Source: Leucobacter massiliensis (GTDB taxonomy: Bacteria; Actinomycetota; Actinomycetes; Actinomycetales; Microbacteriaceae). From it: DNA of 64,000 nucleotides. The translations under genes were made by a program, and so were the position numbers. Shown piece after piece: positions 21,774 to 44,979 of this stretch (within the stretch, counting starts at the first letter, position 1; each line of letters opens with the position of its first letter). The notes under the pieces are model-generated. The model saw only the letters and a program-made list of their open reading frames with translations. It was not told the DNA's origin and ran no database searches. Where the stretch lies: assembly GCF_002982315.1 (NCBI RefSeq), contig NZ_MWZD01000022.1, positions 1-64,000 on the forward strand. Reading direction: 5' to 3'.

Positions 21774-24700
21774 ATGCAGAGGCGGCGCGGATCAGTGCGC
21801 GCGTGGACGATGATCCTCGCGGTGGCGCTCCTCGTGTCGCTGCCCACGAGCCTTCCCGGAGCGCCCGCGATCGCCGTCGAGCAGCCAGGCGGGACCGGGG
21901 ACGGGTCCGGTTCCGGAGGGCCTGCGCCCGCCGATGAGACGGTCACCCCTCCGGAGGGGGCCGATCCCTCCGCGCCGGAGCCCGCGCCCGAAGAGGGGAC
22001 CCCGTCTCCCGCGCCGGACGGGGAGCAGCCCGGAGCGGAGCCCCGCGACCCGGCAGACCCCGGCGCGCCCGGTGACGCGGACGCGCCGCGCGGCCCCGAC
22101 GGCGGTCTCGCCTCCGACTCGCCGGGACCCGCGACCGCCCGCCCCTGGGACGGATCCGGCCTCGAGGCGCTTCCCTACGCTGCGGGTCGCGGCGCGCGGA
22201 TCGGCGACGACTATCCGGCGCGCTATCGATCGCTTCCGTTCCCGTATCCCGCGGGGCAGTACATCTGGGACGAGTGGAACTTCGCCTACCGCCAGTGCAC
22301 CTCCTTCGTCTCGTGGCGCTTGAACAGCGCCAACGGTGTGCCGTTCTCGAACCAGTACGGGGGAGTGACCCGCTGGGGCGATGCGGGCCAGTGGGCGGCG
22401 ACCGCCCGCGGTCTCGGGATCACGGTCGACACCCGGCCCGAGGTGGGTGCCGTGGCCTGGAGCGGACCCAACTACCGCGGGGCGTCCGAGTTCGGCCACG
22501 TCGCCTGGGTCGCGGAGGTCCGCGACGACGGGAATATCGTGATCGAGGAGTACAACAACGGCTGGCTGGGTGCCTACGGTTACCGGCTGGTGCATCCGAG
22601 CGCCTTCCAGGGCTACATCCACGTGAAGGACCTGACCCGGCCGTTCTCGAAGATCGGCTCGGCGACGGTGTCGGGCGCCCCGATGGTCGGCGGCACCCTC
22701 ACCGCGCAGAGTTCCGGCTGGTCGCCCGAGCCGGGCGGGCTCCGCTACCGCTGGATGCGCGACGGCGCCACGATCTCCGGCGCCACGGGCAAGAGCTACC
22801 AGCCGGTCATGGCCGATCTGGGGGCCCGGATCTCCGTGGAGGTCACGGCTGAGCGTCCCGGCTATCGCGCCGCCTCCGTGAGCTCGGGTGCCTCCGCGCG
22901 GGTGACGATGACGGACGCGGACGGCGACGGGCTCGAGGACACCCAGTCGATCCTCCCGTGGAACTCCGACGTCAACGGCGACGGGCTCCCGGACGCCGTC
23001 GGCATGGGCGACGGCGGCGTGTACGTCGCGCTCAACTCCGCGAAGGGCCTGGGCGCCCAGCGGCTCTGGCTCGCGGATTTCGGCTCCGCCGCGGGCTGGA
23101 CCGTGCGCGGCCACCCCCGCACGCTCGTCGACGTCAACGGCGACGGGCGCGCCGACGTGGTGGGGTTCGGGGACACCGGGGTGTACGTCGCGACGAGCAC
23201 GGGATCCGGATTCGGGAAGGCGTCCCGCTGGGTGGCCGGCTTCGGGGCGGCCGGCACCTGGTCGGTCGAGCACCACCCGCGCACCCTTGCGGACGTGACC
23301 GGCGACGGGCTGCCGGACGTCGTGGGCTTCGCCTCCGACGGCGTGCTCGTCGCCGAGGGAACGGGGAAGGGGTTCGGGACGCCCCGGTTGTGGAGCAGTG
23401 ACTTCGGCGCGGCGAAGGGGTGGCGCGTGGACCGCCACCCCCGTCTGCTGGTGGACATGAACAACGACGGCCGCGACGACATCGTCGGTTTCTCGGAGGC
23501 GGGCGTCTCGGTCGCGCTGAGCACCGGTACGGGCTTCGCCCCCGCCAAGCTGTGGGCGGCCGATTTCGGATACGGCACGGGCTGGCGGGTGCAGAGCCAC
23601 GTGCGGGCGATCGCGGATGTCGACGGCGACGGGCGCCCGGACGTCGTGGGATTCGGGAGCGGCGGTGTATACGTGGCACGGAATACGGGCTCGGGGCTCC
23701 GCGCCACGAGCCTGTGGCGCGCCGAGTTCGGCACGGCCACCGGGTGGCGGGTCGGGCAGCATCCGAGGGTGCTCGCCGACGTCAACGGGGACGGACGCGC
23801 CGATGTGGTCGGCTTCGGCGCCGCGGGCACGGCGGTCGCGCTGAGCACCGGCACCTCGTTCGCGGCGCCGAGCGACTGGACGAAGGAGTTCTCCGGGGCG
23901 CAGTGGGGTGCTCACCGGCAGCCGCGTGTCGTCACCGACGCGAACGGTGACGGACGGGCGGACATCGTCGGCTTCTCCGACGCCGGGATACGCATCGCCC
24001 TGAGCTCGGGCCGTTCCTTCGCCGCATCGCAGCTCGCCCTCCCGCAGATGGGACGCAACGCGGGCTGGCAGGTCGGATCGCACCCGCGCGCGCTCGCGAT
24101 TCGCAGCCTCGGTGCGCGTCCCACCCCGACGGTCGCGGGGGAGGCCAGGCTGGGGCAGTCGCTGCGGGCGGATGCGGGACGCTGGGGCCCTTCGCCGGTC
24201 GCGCTCAGCTACCAGTGGCGGCGCGATGGCCAGGCCATCGCCGGGGCGACCGGAGCGAGCTACCGGCTCGTCGCCTCGGACGTCGGTGCCTCGATCTCGG
24301 TGCGCGTCACCGGGAGGAAGCTCGGACACGCGGCGTCGGCGCGCGACTCCGCGGCGCAGCCCGTGCAGCCCGGCCGTCTCAGCTCCGCCGAGCCGACGGT
24401 GAGCGGCGTGGCGAAGCCCGGTGCCCGGCTCGAGGCGAGCGCCGGCAGCTGGGGCCCGGCGCCGGTGACGCTCGCGTACCAGTGGCACCGCAACGGATCC
24501 GCCATCCCGGGCGCGACGTCGCGCAGCTACACGCTCAGCTCCGAGGACGTCGGCCGCCGGATCACCGTGACCGTGACCGGCAGCAAGGCCGCCCATGAGA
24601 CGACGAGCCGTGCCTCCCGGACCGTCAAGGTGCTGGGCGTGCCGGAGCTGCCGGCGAGCTCCCCCTTCGCCGACGTGACGCCCCGCCACAAGTTCTACCG

Positions 24701-25232: not shown

Positions 25233-25392
25233 TCGCGGTGGCGGATGCGCCGAGACGGGGGCGGATGCGCCGGGGTCGTTCTCGCCTTAAGCTGTACGGC
25301 ATTGCACATGGCGGGGAGGACTCCGCGAGGAGGCGGAGCAGCGCAGACGCGAACGGCTCCGCTCCCTCCGGGAGGCAGCGAGGGTGGAGAGC

Positions 25393-27147
25393 ATGGCAGC
25401 ACGGACCGGCAGACTGACGACGGCCATTCTGACCTTGGGGATCATCGGGGCGCTCCTGGTGCCTGCGACGGTCGCCCACGCACAGGAGGATCCGCGCGTG
25501 AGCCAGGAGGCGAATGCCGACGCCGACGCGGGAGCCGGGGGAGCGGAGACCGGGGCGGACGGCGCGGGAGAGGAACCCGCCGAGACGCCCGCCCCTGCCC
25601 CCTCGCCGGAGCCGCAGCCCGAGGATCCGAGCCCGGCACCGTCCCCCGAGTCCCCGGCTCCCGCGGATCCCGAGGGGGATGCCGGCGACGAGCCGGAGCG
25701 CACGCCCTTCGACGACGTCCGCGCCCTGGGCGCGGAGGTCGACCGTCCCGGTGACGACGAGGCGCCGCTGAAGCCGCTCGAAGGGGTCGCGCTCTCGGAG
25801 CTCGCGGCGCAGTCGCTGGCCGGGGGCTTCCAGGCGGGCAACATCATCTCCGACGCGAACTTCTACAACGGCTCGGCGATGACGAGCGCGCAGGTGCAGA
25901 GCTTCCTGAACCAGCAGGTGCCGCGGTGCACCATCGGCGATCCGGGACGTATCGCGGGCGGACCGGCGATCGTGAACGGCCGGAATGTCGGAACCGTCGA
26001 CAGCAACTGCCTCAAGGACAAGCGCTTCAGCAGCCCGAACCGGACCGCCGACCAGTACTGCGGCGCCTACTCGGGAGGGTCCGGCGACAGCGCGGCCACG
26101 GTGATCGTGAAGGTGTCCCGGGCCTGCGGCATCAGTCCGCGCGTGCTGCTCGTGATGCTGCAGAAGGAGCAGAGCCTCGTCACGGACACCTGGCCCACGA
26201 CCCGCCAGTTCGACTTCGCGATGGGTGCCTACTGCCCCGACACCGGCCCCGGCGGCTCCGCGAACTGCGACGCCCAGCGCAAGGGCTTCGCGAACCAGGT
26301 GTACTACGCCGCCTGGCTCATGAAGTACTACCAGGCGCACAACGGATTGAACTACAACCCGGGCCGGAACAACACCATCCAGTGGCACCCCAACACGGCT
26401 TGCGGCACCTCGCAGGTCTACATCTCCAACATGGCCACCGCGAGTCTCTACACCTACACCCCGTACCGGCCCAACCAGGCCGCTCTGAACGCGGGGTTCG
26501 GCACCGGCGACGGCTGCTCCAGCTACGGGAACCGCAACTTCTTCCTGTACTACCAGATGTGGTTCGGCTCCCCGACCACGACCTTCCCCGATGTGCCGGA
26601 GTCCCATAAGTTCTACAAGGAAATCGAGTGGATGTACCAGAAGGGGTATACGACGGGGTGGAAGTCCTCGGACGGACGCGTGCTCTACCGGCCTGGATCG
26701 AATGTGACGCGCGAGGCGATGGCAGCCTTCCTGTACCGGCTCAAAGGCGCAAACGCCCCCGCGCCGAGCAGCTCGCCCTTCGCCGATGTGAAGCCGGGTG
26801 ACCCGTTCTACAAGGAGATCGCCTGGATGCACCAGCAAGGGCTCGCGACCGGCTACGCCCAGGGGGACGGGAAGAAGCCTCGGTATGCGCCGAAGGAGCC
26901 GGTGTCGCGTGAGGCGATGGCTGCTTTCATCTTCCGCTTCAAACAGCCGAGCTTCGCCGCGCCGAGCAGTTCGCCCTTCTCAGATGTGCGCAAGAGCGAT
27001 AAGTTCTACCGGGAGATCGCATGGATGCATGCTGCGGGGCTGTCCACTGGCTTTGATCAGGGAGCGGGAAACAAGCCCAGATATGCCCCACGTGAATCCA
27101 TGTCGCGTGAGGCGATGGCGGCTTTCATCTATCGCCTCGCGAAGTAG
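25393..27147 (+). CDS. Secreted protein with lysozyme-like head and three SLH-like repeats
   Basis: 584 aa from the ATG with GGTGGAG upstream. Signal peptide ~1-33 (ends AHAQ), an acidic Pro-rich linker to ~145, then a Cys-containing domain (~156-395) found in actinobacterial proteins often labelled haemagglutinin; the helix LLVMLQKEQSLV places Glu259 as in lysozyme/transglycosylase folds, though activity is a guess. Residues ~398-584 are three SLH-like repeats closely matching those of the preceding protein. TAAGCT (25288-25293) is a possible -10 with a ~95-nt leader. Confidence 0.87.
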   Translation: MAARTGRLTTAILTLGIIGALLVPATVAHAQEDPRVSQEANADADAGAGGAETGADGAGEEPAETPAPAPSPEPQPEDPSPAPSPESPAPADPEGDAGDEPERTPFDDVRALGAEVDRPGDDEAPLKPLEGVALSELAAQSLAGGFQAGNIISDANFYNGSAMTSAQVQSFLNQQVPRCTIGDPGRIAGGPAIVNGRNVGTVDSNCLKDKRFSSPNRTADQYCGAYSGGSGDSAATVIVKVSRACGISPRVLLVMLQKEQSLVTDTWPTTRQFDFAMGAYCPDTGPGGSANCDAQRKGFANQVYYAAWLMKYYQAHNGLNYNPGRNNTIQWHPNTACGTSQVYISNMATASLYTYTPYRPNQAALNAGFGTGDGCSSYGNRNFFLYYQMWFGSPTTTFPDVPESHKFYKEIEWMYQKGYTTGWKSSDGRVLYRPGSNVTREAMAAFLYRLKGANAPAPSSSPFADVKPGDPFYKEIAWMHQQGLATGYAQGDGKKPRYAPKEPVSREAMAAFIFRFKQPSFAAPSSSPFSDVRKSDKFYREIAWMHAAGLSTGFDQGAGNKPRYAPRESMSREAMAAFIYRLAK

Positions 27148-27181: not shown

Positions 27182-27457
27182 TTACTCCGGTCTCGGAGTC
27201 TGCAGGGGCGTTGCCGCTGACCGGCTCAGCCGCTCTTCGACCAGGATGCGCAGCTCGGCCACCCGCCGGCTGTCGGCACGAATCTCGGAGAGCTCGGCTT
27301 CGAGCTCGTCGAGCCGGCTCTTGAGCGTTTCGTTGCCCTGCAGCAGTTCTTCGAGCTGACCGGCTCGGAGGCGTCGCTTGAGACGCCTGGAGCGCAGGCT
27401 CAGTCGCGCGTCGTGCAGCAGTGTTCTCAACCTATGCAAGCGTGCTGCTCCTTTCAT
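27182..27457 (-). CDS. Small basic coiled-coil protein (DUF6752-like)
   Basis: 91 aa. The N-terminal ~40 residues are strongly basic (Arg/Leu rich, RSRRLKRRLR), followed by a heptad-type coiled coil at about 35-75 (LEELLQGNETLKSRLDELEA). Such small proteins are seen beside glycosyltransferase genes in actinomycetes and I recall them as DUF6752; that name is from memory. It begins within the last 26 bp of the LicD/methyltransferase gene, so the two are translationally coupled. It could be a partner or membrane tether of the enzyme. Confidence 0.7.
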   Translation of the reverse strand: MKGAARLHRLRTLLHDARLSLRSRRLKRRLRAGQLEELLQGNETLKSRLDELEAELSEIRADSRRVAELRILVEERLSRSAATPLQTPRPE

Positions 27458-28976
27458 CGTCGGTTCGCGAGTCGTCGAGCACCAGTGCAGAGACGTGGAC
27501 TGGCCGGCGCACCCCGTCCCGATCGACGTGGTGCGCCATCTGCAGCGTCGTCGCAGAGAGGCCGAGGGGACTCAGCTCGCGTAGCAGTGTGGTTTCGTCG
27601 AGGTGCCACGTCCGCGGGTCTTCGAACCGGTAATCGCCGAGTTCTGCGTAGTCGCTGACGAGCACCTGGGCGCCGCCGCGGAGTGCGAGGCGCAGCAGTT
27701 CATATGCGGTGCGACGCGTCGGCCCGTCGAGGGTGGCAAGCACGTGGTTCGCGGAGACGACACACCCGGATGCCCCGCCGACCACGTCGAAGGCCGAGAG
27801 GAGATAGCTTGCGGTATCCGTGTAGTTCGCGAGGTTGATGTGTTCGACGCCGGCGTTCACCGGTGCGGCACTGTTGTGCGGCTTGACGGCGTAGTCGGAA
27901 GCGAAGCACGCGAGTCCGGCATCCCGGTAGAAGACGGCGTCTGCGCCCAATCCGGCGCCGAGGTCGATCACCGCGCGCGTGCCTTCGGCGGCAACGATGA
28001 CGTGATCCCTGATCAGAGTCGTCTCCTGACCGGAACCGGTACCCTGCAGAGTGCTCTCCCAGAACTCCCGCCGCATGTCGAACGAAGAGAACCACCCGTC
28101 GAACCGTCGCCGGGTCGGCAGCGGCGTGTCGAAACGAAAAGCCGGGTCGGGAGTGCGCCATCCGGGGCCGTAGCACGCCACCAGCCAGGCGTCGGGGTTT
28201 CGCGGGGCGGGAACGTCCACGCCGTGGAGCGTCAAGCGGGACACCGGCACGATCTTCTTGTCGAGCCCGCGGGCGCGGACGTGGATGGGTTCGTGGAAGT
28301 AGCCGTTCTTGTAGAAGGCGGTGAAGATATCGACGTAGTACTCCTCCCCGGAAGGGTCTCCGAAGAAGACTTGCAGATGCGACCAGCTGTGACGGAGCAG
28401 CGTGTAACCGCGCGCACGCAGGCGCTGTTCGATCGCATGAGCCTCCGTCACGAGATCGGAGGGGTGCTCGTGGGCGCTCAGATAAGCGACATCGGCGTCG
28501 TCGTCGTGAGTGAGAAGCCGTCCGTCGCGGCGCGCCCCCAGGAGGGTGCCCCCGACCACGAAAGCAGGAAGGCCCATGCTCTCGAGCTCACGGATGAGCT
28601 CCGCCGCTGAACGCACCACCTGCTCGCGGATTCCCGGGTCGCGAAATCCTGTGAACGAGGGACGCAGCACACCCCACTTGCTGACCACGAGAGGGCGACC
28701 TTCGCGGTCGGTGAAATCCGGCCGTGAGTCGCTGGACCCCCTGTCCCAGACCACGCGTCCTTTCCACAACCGATCGCCATTCTCAGACTCGATCTGGCAC
28801 TCGGAACTCCCGGTCAGCCGCTCGCGGACTCCGTAGGGCCAGGTAACCGTTCTCGTGCCGTCCCGCCCCTCCAGTGCGAGGGTCCACAACCGGTGATCGT
28901 CAACCACCACCTGGACAGTACGGCCCGCATGGCGCCGGTCGAAGTGCACGCCGTCGCGTGTAACGCGCACGCCCAC
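27432..28976 (-). CDS. LicD-type nucleotidyl/phosphotransferase fused to a SAM methyltransferase
   Basis: 514 aa, GTG start behind GGAGGGAG. Residues 1-105 form a beta-rich region without a recognised family. A LicD domain spans ~138-270: GGTLLGARRDG then LTHDDDADV, the nucleotidyltransferase-type metal site, and YVDIF. LicD proteins attach phosphocholine or other phospho-groups to teichoic acids or glycans. The C-terminal ~336-510 is a class I methyltransferase with VIDLGAGLGAD as SAM loop. The fusion suggests transfer and methylation of a substituent on the polymer. It is divergent from the broken acyltransferase. Confidence 0.83.
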   Translation of the reverse strand: MGVRVTRDGVHFDRRHAGRTVQVVVDDHRLWTLALEGRDGTRTVTWPYGVRERLTGSSECQIESENGDRLWKGRVVWDRGSSDSRPDFTDREGRPLVVSKWGVLRPSFTGFRDPGIREQVVRSAAELIRELESMGLPAFVVGGTLLGARRDGRLLTHDDDADVAYLSAHEHPSDLVTEAHAIEQRLRARGYTLLRHSWSHLQVFFGDPSGEEYYVDIFTAFYKNGYFHEPIHVRARGLDKKIVPVSRLTLHGVDVPAPRNPDAWLVACYGPGWRTPDPAFRFDTPLPTRRRFDGWFSSFDMRREFWESTLQGTGSGQETTLIRDHVIVAAEGTRAVIDLGAGLGADAVFYRDAGLACFASDYAVKPHNSAAPVNAGVEHINLANYTDTASYLLSAFDVVGGASGCVVSANHVLATLDGPTRRTAYELLRLALRGGAQVLVSDYAELGDYRFEDPRTWHLDETTLLRELSPLGLSATTLQMAHHVDRDGVRRPVHVSALVLDDSRTDDERSSTLA

Positions 28977-29105: not shown

Positions 29106-30225
29106 GTGACGAGCATCCCCCTTGCCGCCGTCGCCGCGCGCCCTCGCTTCCTGATCCTCGATCTGTTCCGGCTGATGGCCGCGGTCGCGGTGCTCTTCTA
29201 TCACTACACGGCGCGGATAGCGCCGACCTGGGGCGAGCCTCCCTCGGAGATTTTCCAGTTCCTCTCTGGCTTCACCGTCTACGGGATGCTCGGCGTCCAC
29301 CTGTTCTTCATCATCAGCGGCTTCGTCATTTTCCTCTCCGCCGAGGGGCGTACCGTGTGACAGTTCGTCGCCGCGCGCGTCTCTCGCCTCTATCCCGCCT
29401 ACTGGGTTGCCGTCATCCTCACCGCCGGACTTATCGCTCTGTCACCGCAGCTCGGGCGCGAGCTCACTCTTCCGCAGGTGCTCGTGAATCTGACGATGGT
29501 GCAGACGGCCTTCGGCGTCGCCCACGTGGACGGTGCTTACTGGACGCTGTGGATCGAGCTTCTGTTCTACATCCTGATCGCCATGCTGATGAGCATCGGC
29601 CTCACGGAACGACGGGTCTATGCGTTTGTCGTGCTGTGGCCGATCGTCGGGGCACTCGCACAGCACACCGGCTTCCCGTTCCTCGCCGACGTGCTCGCGA
29701 GTGATTACGCTCCGTTTCTTCGCCGGCGGAATGGTGCTGTACCTCATTCACTCGCGGGGCCACAGTCTCCTGCGATGGCTTCTGGTGCTGTTCAACGTCT
29801 TCCTCGCGGTAGAGCGCGCCGTCTCGAACGAGGTGCTGGGCTCGATTCGTGAGAGCACCGGAATCGAGACCTCAGCGCTGGTCGGAACGGTGCTGATCGT
29901 CCTGCTCTTCGCCCTCGTGGCGCTGGTGACCGTCACACCGCTCAAGCACGCGGGGTGGGCTTGGTTGACGTATGCCGGTTCGCTGACCTTCCCGCTCTAT
30001 CTCATGCACGAGTACTGGGGCTGGTGGGCCATCGGCCTCGTCGATCCCGTCGCCGGGAAGTGGCTCGCGCTGCTCGCAGCTTTTGGGATCAGTTTCGCCT
30101 GTGCTGTGGCGATCGAACGATGGGTGGAGCGGCCTCTCCGACCGCGGATTCGGAGATCTCTGCAGTGGTCGCTCGACGACCGCGGACTTCGGAGTGGCCG
30201 TCCTTCTGGCGTGGCCTCGCAGTGA
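29106..30225 (+). pseudogene. Acyltransferase family 3 (OafA-like), disrupted by a stop and a frameshift
   Basis: Conceptual product ~372 aa, a polytopic O-acetyl/acyltransferase-3 protein that would acylate surface glycans (N-terminal FRLMAAVAVLFYHY with the catalytic His). It is broken twice. A TGA at 29358-29360 stands where homologues usually have a residue in a GxxxWxFxxxR-type segment; the frame continues as QFVAARVSRLYPAYW. Then an extra T in GTTTCTTC at about 29715-29717 shifts the frame, after which the +1 frame reads FFAGGMVLYLIHSRG through the remaining helices to 30225. Lesions may be real or sequencing errors. Confidence 0.85.
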
Positions 30226-30233
30226 TGGTGGTC

Positions 30234-30239
30234 TAGAAT
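30234..30239 (+). promoter_or_regulatory. Putative -10 box (TAGAAT) upstream of the CDP-ribitol gene
   Basis: TAGAAT lies 74 bp before the start codon, giving a leader of about 68 nt; no clear -35. Confidence 0.4.
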
Positions 30240-30313
30240 CTGTGAGGAACTCGGCGGCGGGCAGGCAATTCCGTGTGCCCGCGCGCGAATCGAAGATGCA
30301 AGGACAGGTGCAG

Positions 30314-35373: not shown

Positions 35374-38300
35374 GCCGTGCGCTCGAGAAGACGTCCGCGA
35401 ATCCTGCGCTCACCGCGCGCATGAAGACCGAGCTGCGACGGGCGGTGCGGCGGGTCCGTCACGCGGCGGCGCGCCCGTATCGGGCGGGCATGCTGAGCAT
35501 CGTCGTGCCCGTCTACAACGTCGAGGCCTACCTTGAGCAGTGCCTGCGCTCACTCATGCACCAGCGCTATCACAATGTGCAGATCATCGTGGTCGACGAC
35601 GGATCGCCTGATGGGAGTCTGGCGATCGCGCGCCGCCTGGCGCGCGAGGACGCGCGCATCGAGATCGTCCGGCAGCCGAACGGGGGCCTGAGCGCCGCAC
35701 GGAACACCGGGGTGCGGCACGCGAGGGGCGAGTTCCTGACCTTCATCGACAGCGACGACTTCATCGAGCCCGACGCCTATGCCCGGGCCGTGGCGTCGCT
35801 GCAGAGCAGCGGGTCGGATTTCGCCGTGATGTCCTACCGGCGCGAGAAGAACGGCAGGTTCTTCCCGGCGGGGAGGTGGATCCGGGATGCGCACCGGCGC
35901 GAGCTGATCGGCACGACGCTGGAGGAGCATCCGGAGATCATGGTGAACACCATAGCCACGAGCAAGGTCTACCGCCGGCAGTTCTGGGACGCGCAGCGAT
36001 TCTCCTTTCCCGAGGGTTACCTCTATGAGGACCAGATCATGACGATGGAGGCCTACGCGGCGGCGCGCGCGATTGATTTCCTGGAGACTGTGGGCCTGAA
36101 CTGGCGCGTGCGGACCGACAACTCCTCCATCACGCAGAACGCGGTGTCGGCCAGGAACCTTCGAGACTTCGAGTTCGCGATCAAGCGTGCGGTCGGCGTG
36201 CTCGAAGAGCGTGGCGCGCATGTCGCGCGAGACCGCCGGGTCCTGCAGATTCTCAGCAACAACTACGGTGATCTCCTCCCGTATCTGCGGGCGATTGACA
36301 GCGAGGGCTGGCCCCACTTCATCGAGCTGACGCGCTTCCTATGGGATCGTCTCACCGACGACACCAGGGCCGAACTCGAGGCACGTCGGAAGATCCTGCT
36401 CGCGCTGTGCCTCGCCGGGGAGAAGGAGCTCGCACTCGAGTTCCTGGCAGCAGGCGGCTGGAACCGGGACCACTTCGGAGGGCTGCCGCTCGGGGATCGC
36501 ATCGTCGGCGAGTTCCCGCTTTCCGATCGGCTGCGCGAGGTGCTCCCCGCCGACGTCTTCGAGTTCGGTCTGCCCGAAACGGGGCTGCACGCGACGCTTC
36601 GCCGTGTCGGTGCGGGCGACGCCGGTGTGATCCGGCTGGACTTCTTTGCGCATATCAACCACCTGCGGATGGACGAGGCGGAGTTCACCACGCGTGCGTG
36701 GCTGCTCGGGGAGGACGGACTCCGGACCGAGCTCGCGACGAGCCGCCGCCGCGACGACGCTGATGCGGTGGGGCATACGCGCCGCTACGCCGATATGTCC
36801 TTCGGCGCGGCGAGCGCCGAGATTCCGTATGCGCTGCTCGGCCGCGATGCGGTCTTCACCATCGAGGTGGAGATCGAATCGGGCGAACTGACGCGCCGGG
36901 GAGAGCTGACGGCGGATGCGCAGTCGGTACTCGCGCTGCCGCTCGACATCGGGGACGGAGAGCGTTTTGCGGCATTCGCGGCGGAGGCTGACCACGCCCC
37001 CGTCCGGCTGCACGCCTTCGCCCCGCAGCCGCGGGTCGAAGCGGCCCGGGTCGAGCAGGGGCGATTCGTGCTCACGCTCTCCCACCCCTCGGATCTCGAC
37101 GAGGTGACGATCGGCGAGGGAGCAGGATCGGCCGCGGCCTCGCTGACCCGCGCGGAGCCGGGCCGGTACGAGGCGTCCTTCGCGCTGGAGTCAGTGCGGG
37201 AGGCGAGTCGGCGACACGGCGAGGCGCGCCTGCGCGCGCGGTCCGGGCAGATCGAGTCGTACCCGCTGCTCGACCGGCCGATCCTCGCCGGAGAGCTGTA
37301 TGCGACGCCGCTCTTCCCTCGGCGTGGCGACGCGCCGGGGATCTGCGCCGTCGTCGACCTGTCCGGTGCGGTCCTCGTCGAGGAGCTGGAGATCGCCAAC
37401 GACCGGGCGGTCGTCACCGGCCGGGCCTTCGGGCCGCTGTCCTCGGAGCTGGTGGCGGATGGCCCAGGCGGCGCCGTTCCCGCGGAGACCCGCCGAGACG
37501 GTGATGGGATCGTCATCACCGTGCCTCTCGTGCAGGGCCGGTGGGGGCTGCCGCCTGCGGGGATCAAACCGGGCCGCTATACCTTCCGCGCCGAAGAGCC
37601 CTCTGAATCGACGCGCCTCTACCTCGGTCACGGGGTGGTCTCCCGTTTCCCGCTGCGGCGGACGGGCGGGCGATTCCAGCTCACCGCGATGCGCAACGGA
37701 CGCGGGGATTTCGTGATGAGCGTCGCCCCGCCGATCCCCGCTGATCAGCAGGGCTACGGCAATCGCTGGCGCTGGCGTGACTGGTCGCACCGGCTCTCCC
37801 CGGACGGGCGGCGCCGGGCCGTGCTGTTCCGCAACCTCTACGGCGAGCACGCAAACGACTCCGCGCTCGCGGTCCACGAGGAGCTTCGCCGCCGCGGCAG
37901 CGAGCTGGAACTCCTCTGGGCGGTCAAGGACGCCTCGATCCGGCTTCCCGAGGGAGCCGTCCCCGTCCTCGAGGAGACGAAAGCGTACGCGGAGGCGTTC
38001 GCCACCGCGGACTACGTGATGGTCAATGTCCACCAGCCCGACTGGTACAGCAAACGGCCGGGGCAGGTGCTCGTCGAGACCTTCCACGGCTACCCGTTCA
38101 AGCTTGCGGGACGGCCGTGGTGGAAGAAACTGGGCTTCGGGCCCGAGCGGATCGAGTCCTTCATGCGGAGAGCCGAGGAGTGGGACTACCTCGTCTCTCC
38201 CGCTCCCTACGCAACCGGGTTCTTGCGAGAGTTCTGGCGCCCCGACACGCCCTTGCCCGGCGAGATCCTCGAGATCGGATACCCGAGGAACGACGCGCTG

Positions 38301-38912
38301 CTGAACACGGACAGCGTCGCCCTGCGGGAGGACACCCGCAGCCGGCTCGGTATCGCACCGGGAACGCGCGCGGTGCTCTACGCGCCGACGTTCCGCGACT
38401 ATCTCTCGGCCGACGACACGACGGCGAAGCTCGTGGAGCTGTTCGACGCCGAGCAGCTGTCGGCAGCGCTCGGACCCGGATACGCGGTGCTGCTGCGCGG
38501 CCACCCCTTCAATGCTCGCGCGGGCGGCCGCCGGGGACCCGGCGGGGTGATCGACGTGACCGACTACCCCGACATCAATCACCTGATCCTCGCGTCCGAT
38601 ATCGGCGTGCTGGATTACTCATCGCTGCGCTTCGACTACGCTCTGACCGGTAAGCCCACGCTCTTCTTCGTGCCTGACGAAGAGCGCTACTTCGCGGGCA
38701 GGGAAGGCTTCCTGCCGTACGGCGAGACGGTGTTCGGGCCGCGGATCGAGTCGGCGAGCGAGCTGCTCGATGCGATCCGGGATGCGGATGCCCTGCGGGC
38801 GAAATTCGAGCCGCAGCGACAGGAATTCGTCGCCCGCTTTCTGCCCCTCGAGGACGGTAAGGCCACGCAGCGCCTCGTCGACGCGGTGTTCGCGCCGCGC
38901 GGGGACGCGTGA
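35370..38912 (+). CDS. Giant bifunctional GT2 glycosyltransferase / CDP-polyol phosphotransferase, copy 2
   Basis: 1180 aa, GTG overlapping the copy 1 stop. Same order as copy 1: GT-A domain from ~43 (VVPVYNVEAYL, DDGSPDGS, FIDSDDF), beta-rich middle, and C-terminal phosphotransferase with ETFHGYPFK (His906), RGHPFNAR (His1045) and LDYSSLRFDYAL. Whole-length similarity to copy 1 shows an old tandem duplication; the termini and middle differ most. One copy may prime or alternate with the other, so that sugar and polyol phosphate units are laid down in a fixed order. Confidence 0.9.
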   Translation: MSRALEKTSANPALTARMKTELRRAVRRVRHAAARPYRAGMLSIVVPVYNVEAYLEQCLRSLMHQRYHNVQIIVVDDGSPDGSLAIARRLAREDARIEIVRQPNGGLSAARNTGVRHARGEFLTFIDSDDFIEPDAYARAVASLQSSGSDFAVMSYRREKNGRFFPAGRWIRDAHRRELIGTTLEEHPEIMVNTIATSKVYRRQFWDAQRFSFPEGYLYEDQIMTMEAYAAARAIDFLETVGLNWRVRTDNSSITQNAVSARNLRDFEFAIKRAVGVLEERGAHVARDRRVLQILSNNYGDLLPYLRAIDSEGWPHFIELTRFLWDRLTDDTRAELEARRKILLALCLAGEKELALEFLAAGGWNRDHFGGLPLGDRIVGEFPLSDRLREVLPADVFEFGLPETGLHATLRRVGAGDAGVIRLDFFAHINHLRMDEAEFTTRAWLLGEDGLRTELATSRRRDDADAVGHTRRYADMSFGAASAEIPYALLGRDAVFTIEVEIESGELTRRGELTADAQSVLALPLDIGDGERFAAFAAEADHAPVRLHAFAPQPRVEAARVEQGRFVLTLSHPSDLDEVTIGEGAGSAAASLTRAEPGRYEASFALESVREASRRHGEARLRARSGQIESYPLLDRPILAGELYATPLFPRRGDAPGICAVVDLSGAVLVEELEIANDRAVVTGRAFGPLSSELVADGPGGAVPAETRRDGDGIVITVPLVQGRWGLPPAGIKPGRYTFRAEEPSESTRLYLGHGVVSRFPLRRTGGRFQLTAMRNGRGDFVMSVAPPIPADQQGYGNRWRWRDWSHRLSPDGRRRAVLFRNLYGEHANDSALAVHEELRRRGSELELLWAVKDASIRLPEGAVPVLEETKAYAEAFATADYVMVNVHQPDWYSKRPGQVLVETFHGYPFKLAGRPWWKKLGFGPERIESFMRRAEEWDYLVSPAPYATGFLREFWRPDTPLPGEILEIGYPRNDALLNTDSVALREDTRSRLGIAPGTRAVLYAPTFRDYLSADDTTAKLVELFDAEQLSAALGPGYAVLLRGHPFNARAGGRRGPGGVIDVTDYPDINHLILASDIGVLDYSSLRFDYALTGKPTLFFVPDEERYFAGREGFLPYGETVFGPRIESASELLDAIRDADALRAKFEPQRQEFVARFLPLEDGKATQRLVDAVFAPRGDA

Positions 38913-38979: not shown

Positions 38980-40539
38980 GTGAAGATCGTAGTGCTCGGA
39001 GACGTCAGCGGAGCCGGACAGTACCACCTCGGCGACGAAGCCATGACCGAGGTGGCCATCGAGCAACTTCGTCGTCGCGGCGCGGAAGTCACCTTGATCG
39101 CCGGGGAGGTTGACATCTCGGGACCTTTCTACGACGTCACTGCCGTCCCGCGATTCGGCTTCTGGCGTCCTGAGAGCAGGCGCGGGAAGCAGGACCTTCT
39201 CGATCGCATTCTCGCCGAGGTCCGGAACGGATCGCCGTCGACCGCGGAGCTGGCTGCTACGGTTGGGGCGGTGCGCGAAGCGCGGGCCGTGGTGATCGCG
39301 GGCGGCGGCAATCTGAACTCGCGAAATACGCCGAATCACATCTTCGACCGGCTCGCGCTGAAGCGAATCGCTGAGCATTTTGAAGTTCCGCTCTACGTGA
39401 GCAGCCAGACCGTCGGGCCGGAACTGGCATGGGCAGACCGCGTGATGATCGCCGAAATCATGAGCTACGCCCGTGTGGTCGGTGCGCGGGAGTCCTACAC
39501 CGCCGAGCTCATCGCGGAGATCACCGGAGGCCGTGCGCGCGTGGTGAGAACCCTCGACGATGCGGTGCTGCTCGAGCCCTCCGAGGACGCGATGGAGCTC
39601 TCGGCGCGCCTCGGGCTCCCGGATCGCTACGCGGTCGGCAGCTTCACCTATCACGCCTGGTCGACGGGGCTGCCGCGCTATCAGCTGTACCGCGAGATCG
39701 CGCGGGCGCTCGATGAGGTCTGCGAGCGGCGGGACCTTGACATCGTGCTGCTGCCGCACATGGGCGTGCTCGGCGAGAGTGAGCAGCGTGGCGATCGCAA
39801 CGACGTCTACTGCCACGACGCCATCGTCGCCGCCTCACGGAGCGGCCGCATCCGCTCCCTGCCGATGATTTCGGCGCGAGAAGTGCTGGCGGTGACTGCG
39901 GACGCGGAGTTCTCGATCTCAACCCGCTACCACCCGCTCGTTTTCGGCGCGGCGCTGGGCGTTCCCGCCATCGGTCTCGTGACCAGCTTCTACTCCTCCG
40001 TGCGCATGCGCGGCGCGCTCGACAACTTCGGGCTTTCGGCCTTCGCGATTCCGTTCGAGTCGTGGCGTTCGGTCTTCGCAGCCCGCGTGCTCGACGCGCT
40101 GAGCCGTGACGCGCCGGTGCTCCGGCGACACGCGACTCGCGTCTCGGAGTTCGTGCGCGAGTATCAGTCGTCGTGGTGGGACGGTGTCGTGGCGGACATC
40201 TCGGGCCACGGCGAGCTCATGACCAGCGACGCCGTGTTCAGCGGGGGCTACTCCTGGGCCGCGAGCGAAGCGGACGCCGATCTCCTGCTCACGCACAGGC
40301 TTGCGCACGACGCCACGAACATCGATCGGCTGAACGTCGATTTCTCCGTGGAGCAACTTCGTGAGCAGCTTGTGGAATCCGAGAAGCGGATTGACGAGCT
40401 CGAGCGAGAACTGCACGCATTGCGGGATGAGACGCAGCGCGAGGCGGCTCAGCTGCGCCACCGCACCCGGCCACCGGGAGCTGCGCTGCGCGACCGCATC
40501 AACGCATGGCGTCGGTCCAGGCTCGGATCCGGCAAGTAG
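38980..40539 (+). CDS. Polysaccharide pyruvyl transferase family protein (CsaB/WcaK-like)
   Basis: 519 aa from the GTG with GGAGG 5 nt upstream. The N-terminal VVLGDVSGAGQYHLGDEAM matches the start of the family, VIAGGGNLNS is the first Rossmann loop, and STRYHPLVFGAALGVPAIGL is the conserved C-terminal RxH motif. These enzymes transfer pyruvate from PEP onto a sugar as a ketal. A coiled coil lies at ~450-500. The gene sits between the polymerases and the exporter, so the polymer is probably pyruvylated; in other Gram-positives that modification (CsaB) is the ligand of SLH domains. Confidence 0.88.
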   Translation: MKIVVLGDVSGAGQYHLGDEAMTEVAIEQLRRRGAEVTLIAGEVDISGPFYDVTAVPRFGFWRPESRRGKQDLLDRILAEVRNGSPSTAELAATVGAVREARAVVIAGGGNLNSRNTPNHIFDRLALKRIAEHFEVPLYVSSQTVGPELAWADRVMIAEIMSYARVVGARESYTAELIAEITGGRARVVRTLDDAVLLEPSEDAMELSARLGLPDRYAVGSFTYHAWSTGLPRYQLYREIARALDEVCERRDLDIVLLPHMGVLGESEQRGDRNDVYCHDAIVAASRSGRIRSLPMISAREVLAVTADAEFSISTRYHPLVFGAALGVPAIGLVTSFYSSVRMRGALDNFGLSAFAIPFESWRSVFAARVLDALSRDAPVLRRHATRVSEFVREYQSSWWDGVVADISGHGELMTSDAVFSGGYSWAASEADADLLLTHRLAHDATNIDRLNVDFSVEQLREQLVESEKRIDELERELHALRDETQREAAQLRHRTRPPGAALRDRINAWRRSRLGSGK

Positions 40540-40608
40540 CACACCGTCGGCTCCGGAGGAGTGCCACCCGGGACGGACTCGCTTGCGCAGCCCACAGACT
40601 CCGAAAGG

Positions 40609-40614
40609 TACACT
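40609..40614 (+). promoter_or_regulatory. -10 box (TACACT) of the exporter genes, leaderless type
   Basis: TACACT is followed by 8 nt and the GTG at 40623. TTGCGC at 40583-40588 is a weak, widely spaced -35 candidate. Confidence 0.5.
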
Positions 40615-40622
40615 GGCAAATT

Positions 40623-41489
40623 GTGATTCAGGCATCTGTGCGGAACGACCCGGAGTTCGATACTCCGGGCGCGACGAGGGGTCTCCTCGACGTCGTGAGA
40701 CACCGCTATCTGCTCTCCCTGCTGCTGAAGAAGGGCATCAGGACCCGCTATTACGGCTCGACGCTCGGGTGGATCTGGTCCTACGTCCGGCCCGCCGCCC
40801 AGTTCCTCATGTACTACCTCGTGATCGGGGTGATCATGGGGGCCAACCGCGGAATCGACTATTTCCCGATCTATCTGTTCTCGGGGATCGTCGCGGTGAA
40901 TCTCTTCAGTGAAGCGCTGCGCAATACCACCTCGGCCATTACCGACAATGGCTCGCTGATCAAGAAGATCTATCTTCCGCGCGAGCTGTTCCCGGTCGCC
41001 GCGTTGGGTGTCGCGCTCGTACACTTCCTGCCGCAGGCCGTCCTGCTGCTTCTCGTCGCATTGCTGAACGGGTGGACCATCGGTTGGCTGGCACTCGCAG
41101 GCTTCGCGGGGGGCGTGCTGCTGATCCTCGGTTTCGCGCTCGGGCTGGGCCTCTTCTTCGGGGCGATCAACGTCGCATACCGAGACGCGAAGAACGTGGT
41201 CGACCTCATCCTCATGTTCGCCACCTGGGCTTCGCCCGTGCTCTACTCGTGGCAGATGGTTCACGACCGGGCGCCGTCCTGGCTGTATCACCTCTATATG
41301 GCGAACCCGATGACGACAGCGGTGGAGCTCTTCCACGACGCGTTCTGGCTGCCTCTGGCCCCCGATACGCCGCGGCCTCCCGATCTGCTCATGAACGTGG
41401 GGATCGGCGCAGGGCTCGTCCTGGTCACTCTCCTCATCGGTCAGCTCGTGTTCCGCCGCCGGGAGGTGACTTTTGCCCAGTATCTCTGA
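40623..41489 (+). CDS. ABC-2 type polysaccharide/teichoic acid exporter permease (TagG-like)
   Basis: 288 aa from the GTG downstream of TACACT; upstream frame is not used. It has the TagG/Wzm pattern: basic N-terminus (LLKKGIRTRYYGSTLGWIWSYVRPA, shown in part here as its amphipathic lead-in), then six hydrophobic helices, with the IYLPRELFP coupling segment and NVAYRDAKNV loop. It would carry lipid-linked wall polymer across the membrane together with the ATPase that overlaps its 3' end. Position after the polymerases and pyruvyl transferase suggests that the finished, pyruvylated polymer is the cargo. Confidence 0.91.
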   Translation: MIQASVRNDPEFDTPGATRGLLDVVRHRYLLSLLLKKGIRTRYYGSTLGWIWSYVRPAAQFLMYYLVIGVIMGANRGIDYFPIYLFSGIVAVNLFSEALRNTTSAITDNGSLIKKIYLPRELFPVAALGVALVHFLPQAVLLLLVALLNGWTIGWLALAGFAGGVLLILGFALGLGLFFGAINVAYRDAKNVVDLILMFATWASPVLYSWQMVHDRAPSWLYHLYMANPMTTAVELFHDAFWLPLAPDTPRPPDLLMNVGIGAGLVLVTLLIGQLVFRRREVTFAQYL

Positions 41490-42597
41490 GCCACGGCCGG
41501 ATGAAACGGCCAAGCCCGCCATCGTGCTCCATGATGTGCGCAAGACGTTCAAGATCAAGCACACCCAGTCGTTCAAGGAGACTTTCATCGCTGCGCTCAA
41601 GCGCAAGTCGCTCTCGACCGACTTCAACGCGGTCGACGGCGTGAGCCTTGAGGTGCCTCAGGGACAGTCGGTCGCGCTGATGGGCCGGAACGGCTCCGGC
41701 AAGTCCACGACACTGAAGATGCTGTCGGGTGTGCTGCGCCCCGATGCCGGTTGGATCCGCACCCGGGGGAGAATCGCCGGGCTCCTGGAGGTCGGGGCGG
41801 GTTTCCATCCTGATCTCACCGGGCGCGAGAATGTGTACCTCAACGCGGCGATCCTGGGCATGTCGAGGGAGGAGGTCGACGAGCGCTTCGATGACATCCT
41901 CGCCTTCTCAGAGATCGGTGAGTTCATCGACACCGAGGTCAAGCGCTACTCCTCGGGCATGTACTCCCGCCTGGGCTTCTCCGTCGCGGTGCACACTGAG
42001 CTCGACGTGCTTCTCGTCGACGAGATCCTGTCGGTCGGTGACGCGCAATTCCGTGAGAAGTGCAATTTGCGCATGCTGGAGCTGCGGGAGCAGGGCAAGA
42101 CGATCTTCGTGGTGAGCCATGCGGCGGGACAGGTGAAGCAGCTCTGCGAGCGCGGTGTCGTGCTGCAGAACGGCAGGATCGCCTTCGACGGGCCCATCGA
42201 TGAGGCGATCGAGTTCATGAAGCCGAACTACGGCGCTCCCGCAGGGGGCTGGCCGATCGTCGACGCCATCCGGAAGGTGTACGACCGGAGCCCCAGCCGC
42301 TACGGCAGGGCGGTGCAGGAGCGGGTGAGGATCGAAGAGAACGGCGGAGGCTACCAGCAGGAGTTCGAGAGCGGTCTCATCACCTTCTCGGAGGCGCTGG
42401 GCGAGGGTTTCGGCGTCGCCAAGGGCTCCTTCACCACTGAGTACCTCGCCAGGGGAGGGGCAGCCGGGCCGTGGGGTTTCATCGCCGGGGAGGTCACCGG
42501 CACCGTGAAGGGCGGGGACCGGGCGCTGCGGTTCCAGCACGGCACCGCAGGCTACGATCCTGTCGTCGGGGTCCACTTCACCGAGCGGTCCGCCTGA
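41473..42597 (+). CDS. Polysaccharide/teichoic acid exporter ATPase (TagH-like) with LGFP-like tail
   Basis: 374 aa, TTG start inside the permease gene with GGGAGG ahead. Walker A GRNGSGKS at ~72-79, the Q-loop region LLEVGAGFHPDLTG typical of TagH/Wzt, signature YSSGM near 158, Walker B LLVDE and the H-loop VVSHA are intact. After ~270 a ~100-residue tail follows with GGGYQQEFESG and ARGGAAGPWGF, resembling LGFP repeats, which elsewhere are found in secreted wall-binding proteins. In Wzt proteins the C-terminal domain selects polymers, so this tail may read the cargo. Confidence 0.88.
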   Translation: MPSISEPRPDETAKPAIVLHDVRKTFKIKHTQSFKETFIAALKRKSLSTDFNAVDGVSLEVPQGQSVALMGRNGSGKSTTLKMLSGVLRPDAGWIRTRGRIAGLLEVGAGFHPDLTGRENVYLNAAILGMSREEVDERFDDILAFSEIGEFIDTEVKRYSSGMYSRLGFSVAVHTELDVLLVDEILSVGDAQFREKCNLRMLELREQGKTIFVVSHAAGQVKQLCERGVVLQNGRIAFDGPIDEAIEFMKPNYGAPAGGWPIVDAIRKVYDRSPSRYGRAVQERVRIEENGGGYQQEFESGLITFSEALGEGFGVAKGSFTTEYLARGGAAGPWGFIAGEVTGTVKGGDRALRFQHGTAGYDPVVGVHFTERSA

Positions 42598-42654: not shown

Positions 42655-44979
42655 CTAGAGCAGGATCTCCGCACGCAACATGACGTGATCCGAAGGCGCG
42701 GCTCCCTGCACCGTACCGCTGTTGTCGATGTTCAGCATGGTCTCCCACACCGGAACCCGAGACACGCCTTTGACGAGGATGTAGTCGAGATTGTTGCCGA
42801 CGTTCGTCACCTGTCGGAACGAGTCGTTCCAGCATTTCGCGATGTTCGACGAGCCGCTCGAGGCGAGGGCGTACTGCTTCGCGAAGCCGTTGAAGCTGTT
42901 GCAGTTCGCCCGGCCGACGTAGGCGGTACGCAGGCCCGTGTCCTGGCGTGTGTACGACGCCGGGCGTGTGCCCATCACGTTCTTGTACCCGTTGTTCGTG
43001 AAAGACCCGACGATCCGCGTGTAGTCGTTGCCGCCGCTCGTCCAGTGGTTGGTGTTGAAGTCGCCCGTGAGGACCACCGGCAGCTTCGCGGTGTTCAGCT
43101 CGTCGATCAGTGTGCGGGCCGCCTTCGCGTGGGCCTCCCGCTTGGCCGTGTCGCTCGGGTGCAGGTGGAGCGTCGCGAAGAAGAATCGCTTGCCCGTGGC
43201 CTTCTGCTCGAACACCGCGTAGGCCAGGTAGCGCTCCATCTCCTTGTCGAACGCCCAGCCGCTCGGGTTCTCCCCGCCGAGGATCCGGCTGCCCTGCGAC
43301 ACCATGGTCACGGTGTCGGGGTTGTAGGCGATGCGGACGTCGAGCGAGGCGCCGTTGTTCACGTACTGGCAGCGCTTCGTGCCGCCGGAGGAGGGGTCGG
43401 CTGGGTTCCAGGCGTTCGCGCAGTTCCAGGGGTACTCGTTCGTCAGCTTGTAGCTCGTGCCGCCCGCGCTCTTGAAGCCGCGCACCACGTCGCCGTAGAA
43501 GCGGGTGTTGACACCGACCGGGTGCCCGGTTCCCGGGTCGCCGCTCGCGGTGACGGGGTTGAAGCTCGCCTCCTGCAGTGCGATCACGTCGGGGTGCCGC
43601 GAGTTCACGCGTTCCCACACCGCCTGACGGCGCTCCTTCCACAGGACCCACGGGCTGGTCGCCGGCTTCGAAGCGGCGACGTTGAAGGTGGCGACGCTCA
43701 CCGGCGCCAGGGCCGTCGTGTGCGCGGTGAGTTTCGCCGCCGTCCCGATCGCCTTCCCCGAACCGTTAAGCGCCGTCAGCGTGACGAAGTAGTCGAGATC
43801 GGGGCGGAGCCCCGAGACGAGCTGGGCCGTGCCGGTGGTCTCGACGGTGCTTGCAAGCTCCCCGCCACGAGCACGCGACCAGGCGAGGCGATACTTCGCA
43901 GCGCCGCTCACCGCGGGCCAGGCGAGGGTGAGCGAGGAGGTCGTGCGAGAACTGACGCTGAGCGCGCCCGGGCTGGGAGCCGTCGCGGCGGAGGCCTTGC
44001 CGCCGTAGTACTTCCGTTCGAAGCGGGAGAGGAACGCGGCCATCGCCTGCCGCTCGACGGAGGCGTTCGGCTTGAAGGTGCCGTCCTTGTAGCCGGTGGT
44101 GACGCCCGTGCTGGCGAGCCACTCGACTTCGCGGTAGAACTGGTGGCTGCGCGGCACATCCGTGAAACTGGGGGTCGCCGGCGCGGTGAACGCGGGCTTG
44201 CCCGCCGCGCGGTAGAGGAACGCGGCCATGGCCTGCCGCTCGACGGCGCCGCCCGGGCTGAAGCGCCCGTCCGCATAGCCGGTCGTGATGCCGTTGGCAC
44301 TCAACCAGATGATCTCCGAGAAGAACTTGTGTCCGGTGCCCACGTCCGTGAACGGCGAGAAGGTCTGCGGCGGAAGCGGGACGCCGGTGTCGAAGCGCTC
44401 GAGAAACGCGGCCATGGCCTCCCGCGTGACCGCGCTCTTCGGGCGGAACGTTCCGTCCGCGTAGCCGGTGGTGACCCGCGTTCCCGCGAGCCAGGCGATC
44501 TCAGCCGCGAACTGGTGGTTCGCGGGCACATCGGCGAAGGGCCCGGCGCCGCTCGCGGCGGCCTGCAGGGATTGCGCGGCGGTGTCCTCGCCGAGGGGCT
44601 CGGCGCCTTCGGGGGCTTCAGAGTCGGATTCCTCGGGCGCTTCGGGTGCGGATTCCCCGGGCTCCGCGGGCACGGACTCCTCGGGAAGGGGAGCCTCGGG
44701 ATCGCTGCTCGGCGCGGGCGCGCCGGGGTCCGCCCCGTCAGGCTCTGAGCCCTCCGCCGAAGGCTGCTCGCCGTCTCCTCCGGGATCGTCCGCGCCGGGG
44801 CTCTCGGGAGCGTCGGCCGGCGGCTCGCCGGGCTCGCTGAGCGGCCAGTGCTCGGGCTCCTCGACTGCTGAGGCGGGGAGGGCCCCGCCGAGCAGCAGCG
44901 CGGCAACGATCGGTACGAGCGCCAGGGCGCGCAGCGGACGGCGCGCCGAACGGTTGTCGGGGGGAAGGACGCTGGGCAC
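42655..44979 (-). CDS. Secreted SLH-repeat / Fn3 / endonuclease-exonuclease-phosphatase protein
   Basis: 774 aa, GTG start behind GAGGAG. Signal peptide ~1-38 (ends PASAVEE), a very acidic Pro/Glu linker to ~145, three SLH-like repeats (~145-323: ITTGYADG, ERQAMAAFL), one fibronectin III domain (~333-420), then an EEP domain (~427-774) with LQEASFN, TGDFNTNH and SDHVML. Unlike the other two SLH proteins here the repeats are at the N-terminal side. It is likely a wall-bound extracellular nuclease or phosphodiesterase; no sortase motif is seen. Confidence 0.9.
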   Translation of the reverse strand: MPSVLPPDNRSARRPLRALALVPIVAALLLGGALPASAVEEPEHWPLSEPGEPPADAPESPGADDPGGDGEQPSAEGSEPDGADPGAPAPSSDPEAPLPEESVPAEPGESAPEAPEESDSEAPEGAEPLGEDTAAQSLQAAASGAGPFADVPANHQFAAEIAWLAGTRVTTGYADGTFRPKSAVTREAMAAFLERFDTGVPLPPQTFSPFTDVGTGHKFFSEIIWLSANGITTGYADGRFSPGGAVERQAMAAFLYRAAGKPAFTAPATPSFTDVPRSHQFYREVEWLASTGVTTGYKDGTFKPNASVERQAMAAFLSRFERKYYGGKASAATAPSPGALSVSSRTTSSLTLAWPAVSGAAKYRLAWSRARGGELASTVETTGTAQLVSGLRPDLDYFVTLTALNGSGKAIGTAAKLTAHTTALAPVSVATFNVAASKPATSPWVLWKERRQAVWERVNSRHPDVIALQEASFNPVTASGDPGTGHPVGVNTRFYGDVVRGFKSAGGTSYKLTNEYPWNCANAWNPADPSSGGTKRCQYVNNGASLDVRIAYNPDTVTMVSQGSRILGGENPSGWAFDKEMERYLAYAVFEQKATGKRFFFATLHLHPSDTAKREAHAKAARTLIDELNTAKLPVVLTGDFNTNHWTSGGNDYTRIVGSFTNNGYKNVMGTRPASYTRQDTGLRTAYVGRANCNSFNGFAKQYALASSGSSNIAKCWNDSFRQVTNVGNNLDYILVKGVSRVPVWETMLNIDNSGTVQGAAPSDHVMLRAEILL

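Follow-up and report, generated by a model that had tools for sequence, protein, structure and literature searches.

The first 64,000 nucleotides of contig NZ_MWZD01000022.1 of Leucobacter massiliensis (hereafter the window, which lies on contig 15 of a 3.14-Mb genome) contain an island of polymer genes, among them a gene for a predicted polysaccharide pyruvyltransferase. The island is flanked by genes for three secreted proteins with triplets of S-layer homology (SLH) repeats: SLH_A, SLH_B, and SLH_C (Table 1). Analysis of this cassette and its comparison with related genomes inclined us to the reading that a pyruvylated (glycosyl-)polyol-phosphate teichoic acid docks the SLH proteins via its pyruvate, and that the backbone beneath the pyruvate is exchangeable. 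The observations behind this reading concern gene content, fold, residue pattern, co-occurrence, linkage, and cassette exchange. The pyruvate mark is probably what holds the SLH proteins on the cell. By comparison, there is indirect support for a link of SLH with pyruvate, because the SLH and enzyme genes adjoin above chance in several families and the residues predicted to contact pyruvate are kept.

SLH repeats and their predicted pyruvate-contacting residues

A profile built from actinobacterial repeats, the seeds of which include most of the window repeats, found three repeats in each window SLH protein at 70–95 bits, and signal-peptide-like N-termini were read from the sequence of all three proteins. 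Above-cut-off SLH matches were also found in four further genes beyond the window (on contig 15 near 66 kb and 131 kb, and on C9 and C6), so the genome holds at least seven SLH genes. An AlphaFold2 model of the SLH_C triplet (44002–44541) had a pLDDT of 93.7 and a pTM of 0.86. Foldseek matched this model to the SLH domain of Sap (PDB ID: 3pyw) with a TM score of 0.86 and also to that of SpaA, and all 15 hits at E ≤ 1e-3 were SLH trimers of these two proteins. As modelled, the SLH_C triplet has the three-repeat pseudo-trimer fold.

In SpaA, Arg43 and Gly29 contact pyruvate and Trp13 stacks on N-acetylmannosamine (ManNAc), according to excerpts of PMC6081394. When the SLH_C triplet was aligned to Sap, Q, K, and Q occupied the position of Trp13. 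This residue was found in 0 of 142 repeats of Microbacteriaceae (5 of them gapped there) and in 2 of 102 repeats from the order's other families (29 loci). Arg43 was kept in 139/142 and 102/102 repeats of the two samples, Gly29 in 128/142 and 98/102, and a Trp seven residues past position 13 was present in 139/142 and 98/102; since the repeats were gathered with models, highly divergent ones may be missed in these counts. In the genome of L. massiliensis itself, both Arg43 and Gly29 were present in 21 of the 21 repeats examined. Judged by these alignments, the predicted pyruvate grip is retained in actinobacterial SLH repeats and the residue that stacks on the sugar is lost or displaced. Gly29 was missing in two of the three repeats of SLH triplets from G240 and G345 (L057, L070, L055, and L073), in which binding is perhaps lost or changed. 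We also considered whether retention of Gly29 and Arg43 was tied to a linked enzyme. The family counts (114/117 linked repeats versus 14/25 others) were grouped post hoc and summed by hand over related genomes and are not leaned on, and the order showed no difference; this idea was rejected.

Linkage of SLH genes with the pyruvyltransferase

The pyruvyltransferase gene of the island is the sole PF04230 match of the genome (105.2 bits against a cut-off of 25.3), and by family assignment its product is a predicted polysaccharide pyruvyltransferase. The sequence-only reading had described it as CsaB/WcaK-like. Membership of the broad family stood, but that of CsaB proper did not, with 54.6 bits against the TIGR03609 cut-off of 213.1. 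The eight best named relatives of the enzyme were from Leucobacter, and a PDB search with the pyruvyltransferase profile gave no sequence-related solved chain.

SLH repeats were detected in 18 of 398 Microbacteriaceae genomes (7 of 85 genera), the same 18 with Pfam and with the actinobacterial-repeat model. PF04230 was present in 15 of these 18 genomes versus 196 of 380 without SLH (Fisher p 0.007), and a sixteenth, G233, has a divergent copy missed by Pfam. In a set of 337 genomes of the order, 74 carried SLH, and PF04230 was found in 63/74 versus 152/263 without SLH (p 6e-6); both tests treat the genomes as independent though they are related. Had SLH proteins been common in relatives lacking the enzyme, this would have spoken against the original proposal; the counts mostly favour it, although the association is not absolute. 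PF04230 is a broad family, and position is therefore more telling than co-occurrence.

For linkage, 35 genomes of the order outside the family were used, with SLH and PF04230 places among the matches listed. The two lay within 10 kb of each other in 15/35 and within 2 kb in 9/35, against chance expectations of 0.62 and 0.14 under uniform random placement; 15 was not reached in 200,000 simulations. The linked genomes fell in families f4, f6, f10, f12, and f14. The SLH and enzyme open reading frames (ORFs) abut or are at most about 0.2 kb apart in G040 and in seven genomes of family f12. Within Microbacteriaceae, a pyruvyltransferase lay within about 10 kb of an SLH gene in 9 of the 18 SLH genomes, from five genera (G000, G208, G253, G376, G395, G040, G331, G358, and, with the divergent domain, G233). 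Among 80 named relatives of the enzyme, 26 carried SLH in a flank of up to 10 kb; these were from Leucobacter, Aeromicrobium, Arthrobacter, Pseudarthrobacter, Paenarthrobacter, Rothia, Demequina, and an uncultured Micrococcaceae bacterium. The named locus L250 breaks off within a secreted protein related to SLH_A in the part without SLH repeats. In Aeromicrobium piscarium (L261), a genus that we take to belong to another order than Leucobacter, a homologue of SLH_C (7793–9649; 51% identity over 635 amino acids) lies about 0.35 kb from the pyruvyltransferase (10001–11434), and the locus also holds LicD-like and TagF genes.

A quick tree of the pyruvyltransferases (the 102 of 127 rows for which gene surroundings were available, with several long branches) placed the Leucobacter enzymes in a single clade (support 100) with one Marihabitans sequence within it. 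The SLH-linked state took 16 changes on this tree, at least 11 of them forced by the starred branches, against a mean of 33 with shuffled labels, which indicated a clustered link that has repeatedly arisen or been lost. The tree excludes the SLH-near enzymes of G208, G233, and G331 because of their low scores, so SLH-near enzymes are not all of the YHxGDEA kind; the enzymes of G208, a member of the genus, are divergent. In G233, a glycosyltransferase of 1169 amino acids beside the SLH cluster (L086:215–3724) ends in a domain that matched our pyruvyltransferase model, built without the G233 sequence, at 43.5 bits (E 4e-12) and reached an hhalign probability of 96%, but Pfam gave no match to this domain even at E 10. 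It was accordingly taken as a divergent pyruvyltransferase, with some uncertainty, and G233 was dropped as a counter-example of an SLH cluster without PF04230; the domain was also included in the sensitive profile used below. Fusions of a pyruvyltransferase with a family 2 glycosyltransferase (GT2), in both domain orders, were seen near SLH genes at L202:8098–10455, L204:8118–11012, L207:8504–12070, and L078:13232–16366.

The polymer backbone and rival explanations

The nearest PDB chains to the first half of the IspD-fold fusion protein were ribitol-5-phosphate cytidylyltransferases (4jis, 5e-32; 6xhp, 6e-30), with IspD (2xwl, 9e-30) nearly as near; NCBIfam gave ispD 161.5 bits and the ribitol subfamily 151.3 bits, both under the cut-off. 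An IspD-fold cytidylyltransferase joined to a short-chain dehydrogenase is the arrangement of CDP-ribitol synthases such as Bcs1, and the protein is probably a CDP-polyol enzyme making CDP-ribitol. Polymerase 1 matched TagF (3l7i, 2e-63) and TarL (8va1, 1e-21). In both polymerases a GT2 domain is joined to the TagF domain, which suggested a polymer of polyol phosphate and sugar. The island combines TagF-type polymerases with a TagGH exporter, as a wall teichoic acid locus does, at scores that did not reach the TagH and TarF/TarL equivalog cut-offs. A classical locus for a pyruvylated secondary cell wall polymer (SCWP) would have a ManNAc supply and no polyol phosphate genes; here TagF genes are present, and no ManNAc gene was found among the cassette proteins scanned with Pfam and NCBIfam. 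The earlier view that the polymer genes are of the polyol-phosphate type, unlike those for the classical SLH ligand, was upheld, as was that of a TagGH-like exporter. The CDP-polyol enzyme and the pyruvyltransferase also occur together in Leifsonia sp. Leaf264, Microbacterium sp. MPKO10, and one Microbacterium metagenome-assembled genome, the first two of which have a full-length homologue of polymerase 1 and a LicD-like gene as well. Homologues of the window LicD-family protein in L245, L254, and L261 recur with TagF and pyruvyltransferase genes.

The backbone genes differed among relatives. Leucobacter genomes G253 and G376 keep the frame GT2, SLH_A, SLH_B, polymer genes, and TagH (with TagH on the other strand), with identities to the window of 59–62% for SLH_A and 56–61% for SLH_B, and each has two pyruvyltransferase copies with 47–51% identity to that of the window. 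The stretches of G253 and G376 examined gave no close homologue of the window CDP-polyol enzyme. Ten proteins scanned in the G376 stretch included a UDP-GlcNAc 2-epimerase, a UDP-sugar dehydrogenase, glycosyltransferases, two pyruvyltransferases (one fused to GT2), and a fusion of a TagF-type with a GT4-type domain; one protein was left without a match. In G358 and G395, each from a further genus, genes for a pyruvyltransferase, a glycosyltransferase, and an SLH protein follow one another in this order; the large protein next to them was without a match in G358 and gave a weak glycosyltransferase match in G395. In a control with TagF (PF04464) on 19 of the 35 order genomes, taken from the top in label order, 12 genomes with SLH and the enzyme gave no TagF match. 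The GC content was 0.64–0.70 over 26–44 kb and mostly 0.70–0.76 elsewhere in the window (three other 2-kb segments had 0.68–0.70), and this low GC fits an exchanged cassette. Across the compared loci the pyruvate enzyme is constant and the predicted polymer backbone is interchangeable. The suggestion that a polyol-phosphate backbone forms a special new anchor polymer was not supported in that form.

In three genomes from two genera of Microbacteriaceae (G233, G040, and G070), the TagH-type ATPase itself ends in SLH repeats (Table 1). These repeats directly follow the nucleotide-binding domain, and in the two fusions that were read by eye a membrane segment was not apparent. Pfam SLH matched these two with 2.6e-10 and 8.5e-9, and by eye repeat 1 keeps Gly29 and Arg43 and repeat 2 seemingly does not. 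The window TagH has an LGFP-like C-terminus instead (7e-4, below the cut-off). Fusion was rejected as a general rule: it was found in 3 of the 80 SLH genomes searched (of 89) by match length past the ATPase, and no SLH repeat was present in eight further long matches that were inspected. The Wzt protein of O-antigen exporters has a carbohydrate-binding domain at the C-terminus of the export ATPase, and by analogy SLH on TagH would make sense as a module that binds the finished polymer.

In the reading that we prefer, the island would make a wall teichoic acid of the (glycosyl-)polyol phosphate type, with ribitol as the probable polyol. The PF04230 enzyme would pyruvylate this polymer in the cytoplasm, on the polyol or a chain sugar, and TagGH would export it. 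The exposed pyruvate ketals would then be docking sites for the SLH triplets of the secreted hydrolase, the nuclease-like protein, and others. Arg43 and Gly29 in the SLH grooves would hold the carboxylate of the ketal, as they do in SpaA and Sap, and the actinobacterial grooves would have lost Trp13, with its ManNAc stacking, and have a Trp two helical turns later instead. We infer pyruvylation of the window polymer by this enzyme, a wall location of the polymer, and binding of SLH to it; the SLH proteins would need the pyruvate, and the underlying backbone could be exchanged. A stronger version, in which actinobacterial SLH is a distinct class that reads a pyruvate ketal on any backbone, teichoic acid or polysaccharide, with the aromatic contact of Trp13 moved to the later Trp, and in some genera TagH-SLH checks pyruvylation in the cytoplasm before export, is put forward tentatively and is a possibility we rather doubt.

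Several points weigh against docking through pyruvate, besides the low CsaB score and the relatedness of the genomes in the co-occurrence tests. A sensitive pyruvyltransferase profile found no enzyme in 11 of the 74 order SLH genomes, G240 among them (another of the enzyme-less ones, G435, is 73% complete), and the family SLH genome G096 gave only a weak partial match (3e-4). In the order sample, Gly29 and Arg43 were intact in 90/93 repeats with PF04230 and in 8/9 repeats from three enzyme-less genomes, so SLH may bind something else there. Conversely, many genomes carry the enzyme without SLH. One is Microbacterium MPKO10, where genes of the CDP-polyol, TagF, LicD-like, and pyruvyltransferase kinds stand together and the whole genome gave no SLH match. 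Such an asymmetry would be expected from a polymer with further uses, but it does not prove docking. As for the backbone, family models placed the cytidylyltransferase half of the CDP-polyol enzyme not clearly on the ribitol-specific over the methylerythritol-specific side.

SLH and pyruvyltransferase genes might be mere neighbours that both settle in polysaccharide islands, with peptidoglycan or a polymer made elsewhere as the SLH ligand. The lack of an SLH gene in the flanks (up to 10 kb) of 54 of the 80 named enzyme relatives, the SLH genomes without a detectable enzyme, and the richness of the window in other envelope genes agree with this. TagF, however, is likewise an island gene, and it had a listed SLH place no more than 10 kb away in 1 of the 19 control genomes, compared with 10 of the same 19 for the pyruvyltransferase; the TagF control has little room, since only 7/19 genomes carry TagF (1/7 of the carriers). 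Together with the close spacing in the f12 genomes and G040 and the conserved pyruvate-contacting residues, this made a mere neighbourhood rather unlikely in our estimation. If a separate pyruvylated polysaccharide were both the SLH ligand and the enzyme substrate, the teichoic acid genes would be incidental. The 12 control genomes without TagF, and the epimerase and dehydrogenase genes at the corresponding place in G376, are in line with such a polysaccharide, but in the window the enzyme gene directly follows the two polymerase genes, and the CDP-polyol gene, TagF, and a homologous enzyme are together in Leifsonia and MPKO10; we judge this explanation unlikely. A classical S-layer, with the SLH proteins as its subunits in the manner of Bacillus and Paenibacillus, would account for SLH triplets with an adjoining pyruvyltransferase, as in P. 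alvei (excerpts of PMC6801904). It seems very improbable, because the further Pfam domains of two window proteins are of CHAP/FG-GAP and nuclease types and the genome has at least seven different SLH genes.

Gene layout and comparison with known systems

The gene content given in the sequence-only reading, with SLH triplets on three secreted proteins around CDP-polyol, polymerase, PF04230, and TagGH genes, was reproduced by Pfam. For SLH_B, the triplet was found, but the longest ORF begins at 25384 and not at 25393 as first given; its remainder had no other Pfam match. ARAGORN called a tRNA-Arg at 25554–25644 (minus strand) within the Pro/Glu-rich coding part of SLH_B, which is probably false.

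Table 1. Genes of the SLH and polymer cassette in the window, and TagH-SLH fusions of related genomes
Feature	Position	Strand	Best profile match	Remarks
SLH_A	21774–25232	+	Pfam SLH, E 2.4e-10	Secreted; CHAP (peptidoglycan hydrolase type) and FG-GAP; C-terminal SLH triplet
SLH_B	25384–27147	+	Pfam SLH, 1.6e-20	Secreted; C-terminal SLH triplet
LicD-family protein	27432–28976	-	Pfam LicD, 2e-5	C-terminal half methyltransferase-like (by eye only)
IspD-fold cytidylyltransferase and short-chain dehydrogenase fusion	30164–31675	+	Pfam IspD, 8e-45	Probable CDP-polyol enzyme
Polymerase 1	31699–35373	+	Pfam Glyphos_transf, 7e-76	GT2 and TagF-like polyol-phosphate polymerase
Polymerase 2	35370–38912	+	Pfam Glyphos_transf, 1e-76	GT2 and TagF-like polyol-phosphate polymerase
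Polysaccharide pyruvyltransferase (predicted)	38980–40539	+	PF04230 (PS_pyruv_trans), 7.8e-30	YHxGDEA motif
TagG-like ABC-2 permease	40506–41489	+	Pfam, 8e-16	Real start probably downstream of 40506
TagH-like ABC ATPase	41473–42597	+	PRK13545, 3e-54 (below its cut-off)	C-terminal LGFP-like extension
SLH_C	42655–44979	-	Pfam SLH, 9.2e-34	Secreted; SLH triplet, fn3, and Exo_endo_phos
TagH-SLH fusion	L052:1195–2385	-		
TagH-SLH fusion (G233)	L086:10543–11775	-		
TagH-SLH fusion (L064)	G070:C1:332709–333869			

An acyltransferase-like membrane protein (by eye) at 29106–30225 is split across several reading frames and looks broken. A sulfatase-family protein (17469–19745; PF00884, 5e-16), which resembles proteins of the lipoteichoic acid synthase type, lies upstream of the GT2 and SLH genes. 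A UDP-galactopyranose mutase (62427–63578; PF03275, 1e-83) makes a second, galactofuranose-containing polymer likely.

If pyruvate docking is correct, the pyruvate ketals and the SLH modules of Actinobacteria would both gain an explanation, and the display of proteins would no longer depend on the type of polymer. If SLH reads the ketal whatever the backbone, backbones could be swapped like serotypes with the surface proteins retained. The TagH-SLH fusions offer an unusual handle on how an exporter recognizes finished polymer. Searches of the open-licence literature found no paper on the ligand of actinobacterial SLH, only unrelated papers for SLH combined with TagH or LGFP, and nothing on point for SLH in Microbacteriaceae or Leucobacter, which does not prove absence from print.

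The exporter resembles that of TagGH/TarGH wall teichoic acid export in the ABC-2 permease adjoining a TagH-type ATPase, and differs in the ATPase C-terminus, LGFP-like in the window and made of SLH repeats in the three relatives. As for Wzt, the likeness to TagH-SLH is in the ligand-reading module at the end of the export ATPase; the module there is not SLH, and the comparison is an analogy only.

The occurrence of SLH domains in some Actinobacteria, and of a CsaB orthologue in several SLH-bearing bacteria, has been reviewed (excerpts of PMC5817068 and PMC6801904). In the excerpted text of PMC6801904, pyruvate ketals on actinobacterial wall polymers, teichoic acids included, are treated chiefly as a chemotaxonomic marker without known function. 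The examples there are a 1,5-poly(ribitol phosphate) with 2,4-pyruvate in Nocardiopsis metallicus and a pyruvylated poly(mannitol phosphate) in Brevibacterium iodinum VKM Ac-2106, which combine polyol phosphate and pyruvate ketals as proposed for the window. B. iodinum ATCC 49514, a strain that may differ from the one analysed chemically, has a homologue of the window pyruvyltransferase (36% identity), and no SLH gene was found in the Brevibacterium enzyme flanks of up to 10 kb. The CsaB/SCWP/SLH system of Bacillus and Paenibacillus alvei is like the window in the trimer fold, Arg43, Gly29, the PF04230 enzyme, and SLH-enzyme adjacency. It differs in that the window repeats are without Trp13, the window enzyme is far under the CsaB equivalog cut-off, and the window has CDP-polyol/TagF teichoic acid genes, whereas the known SLH ligands are described in excerpts of PMC6801904 and PMC7831098 as without repetitive alditol phosphates. 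The cassette is, with moderate probability, a variant of the known pyruvate-SLH anchoring, found in Actinobacteria with a teichoic acid-type polymer in this strain, an altered sugar contact, and interchangeable backbones.

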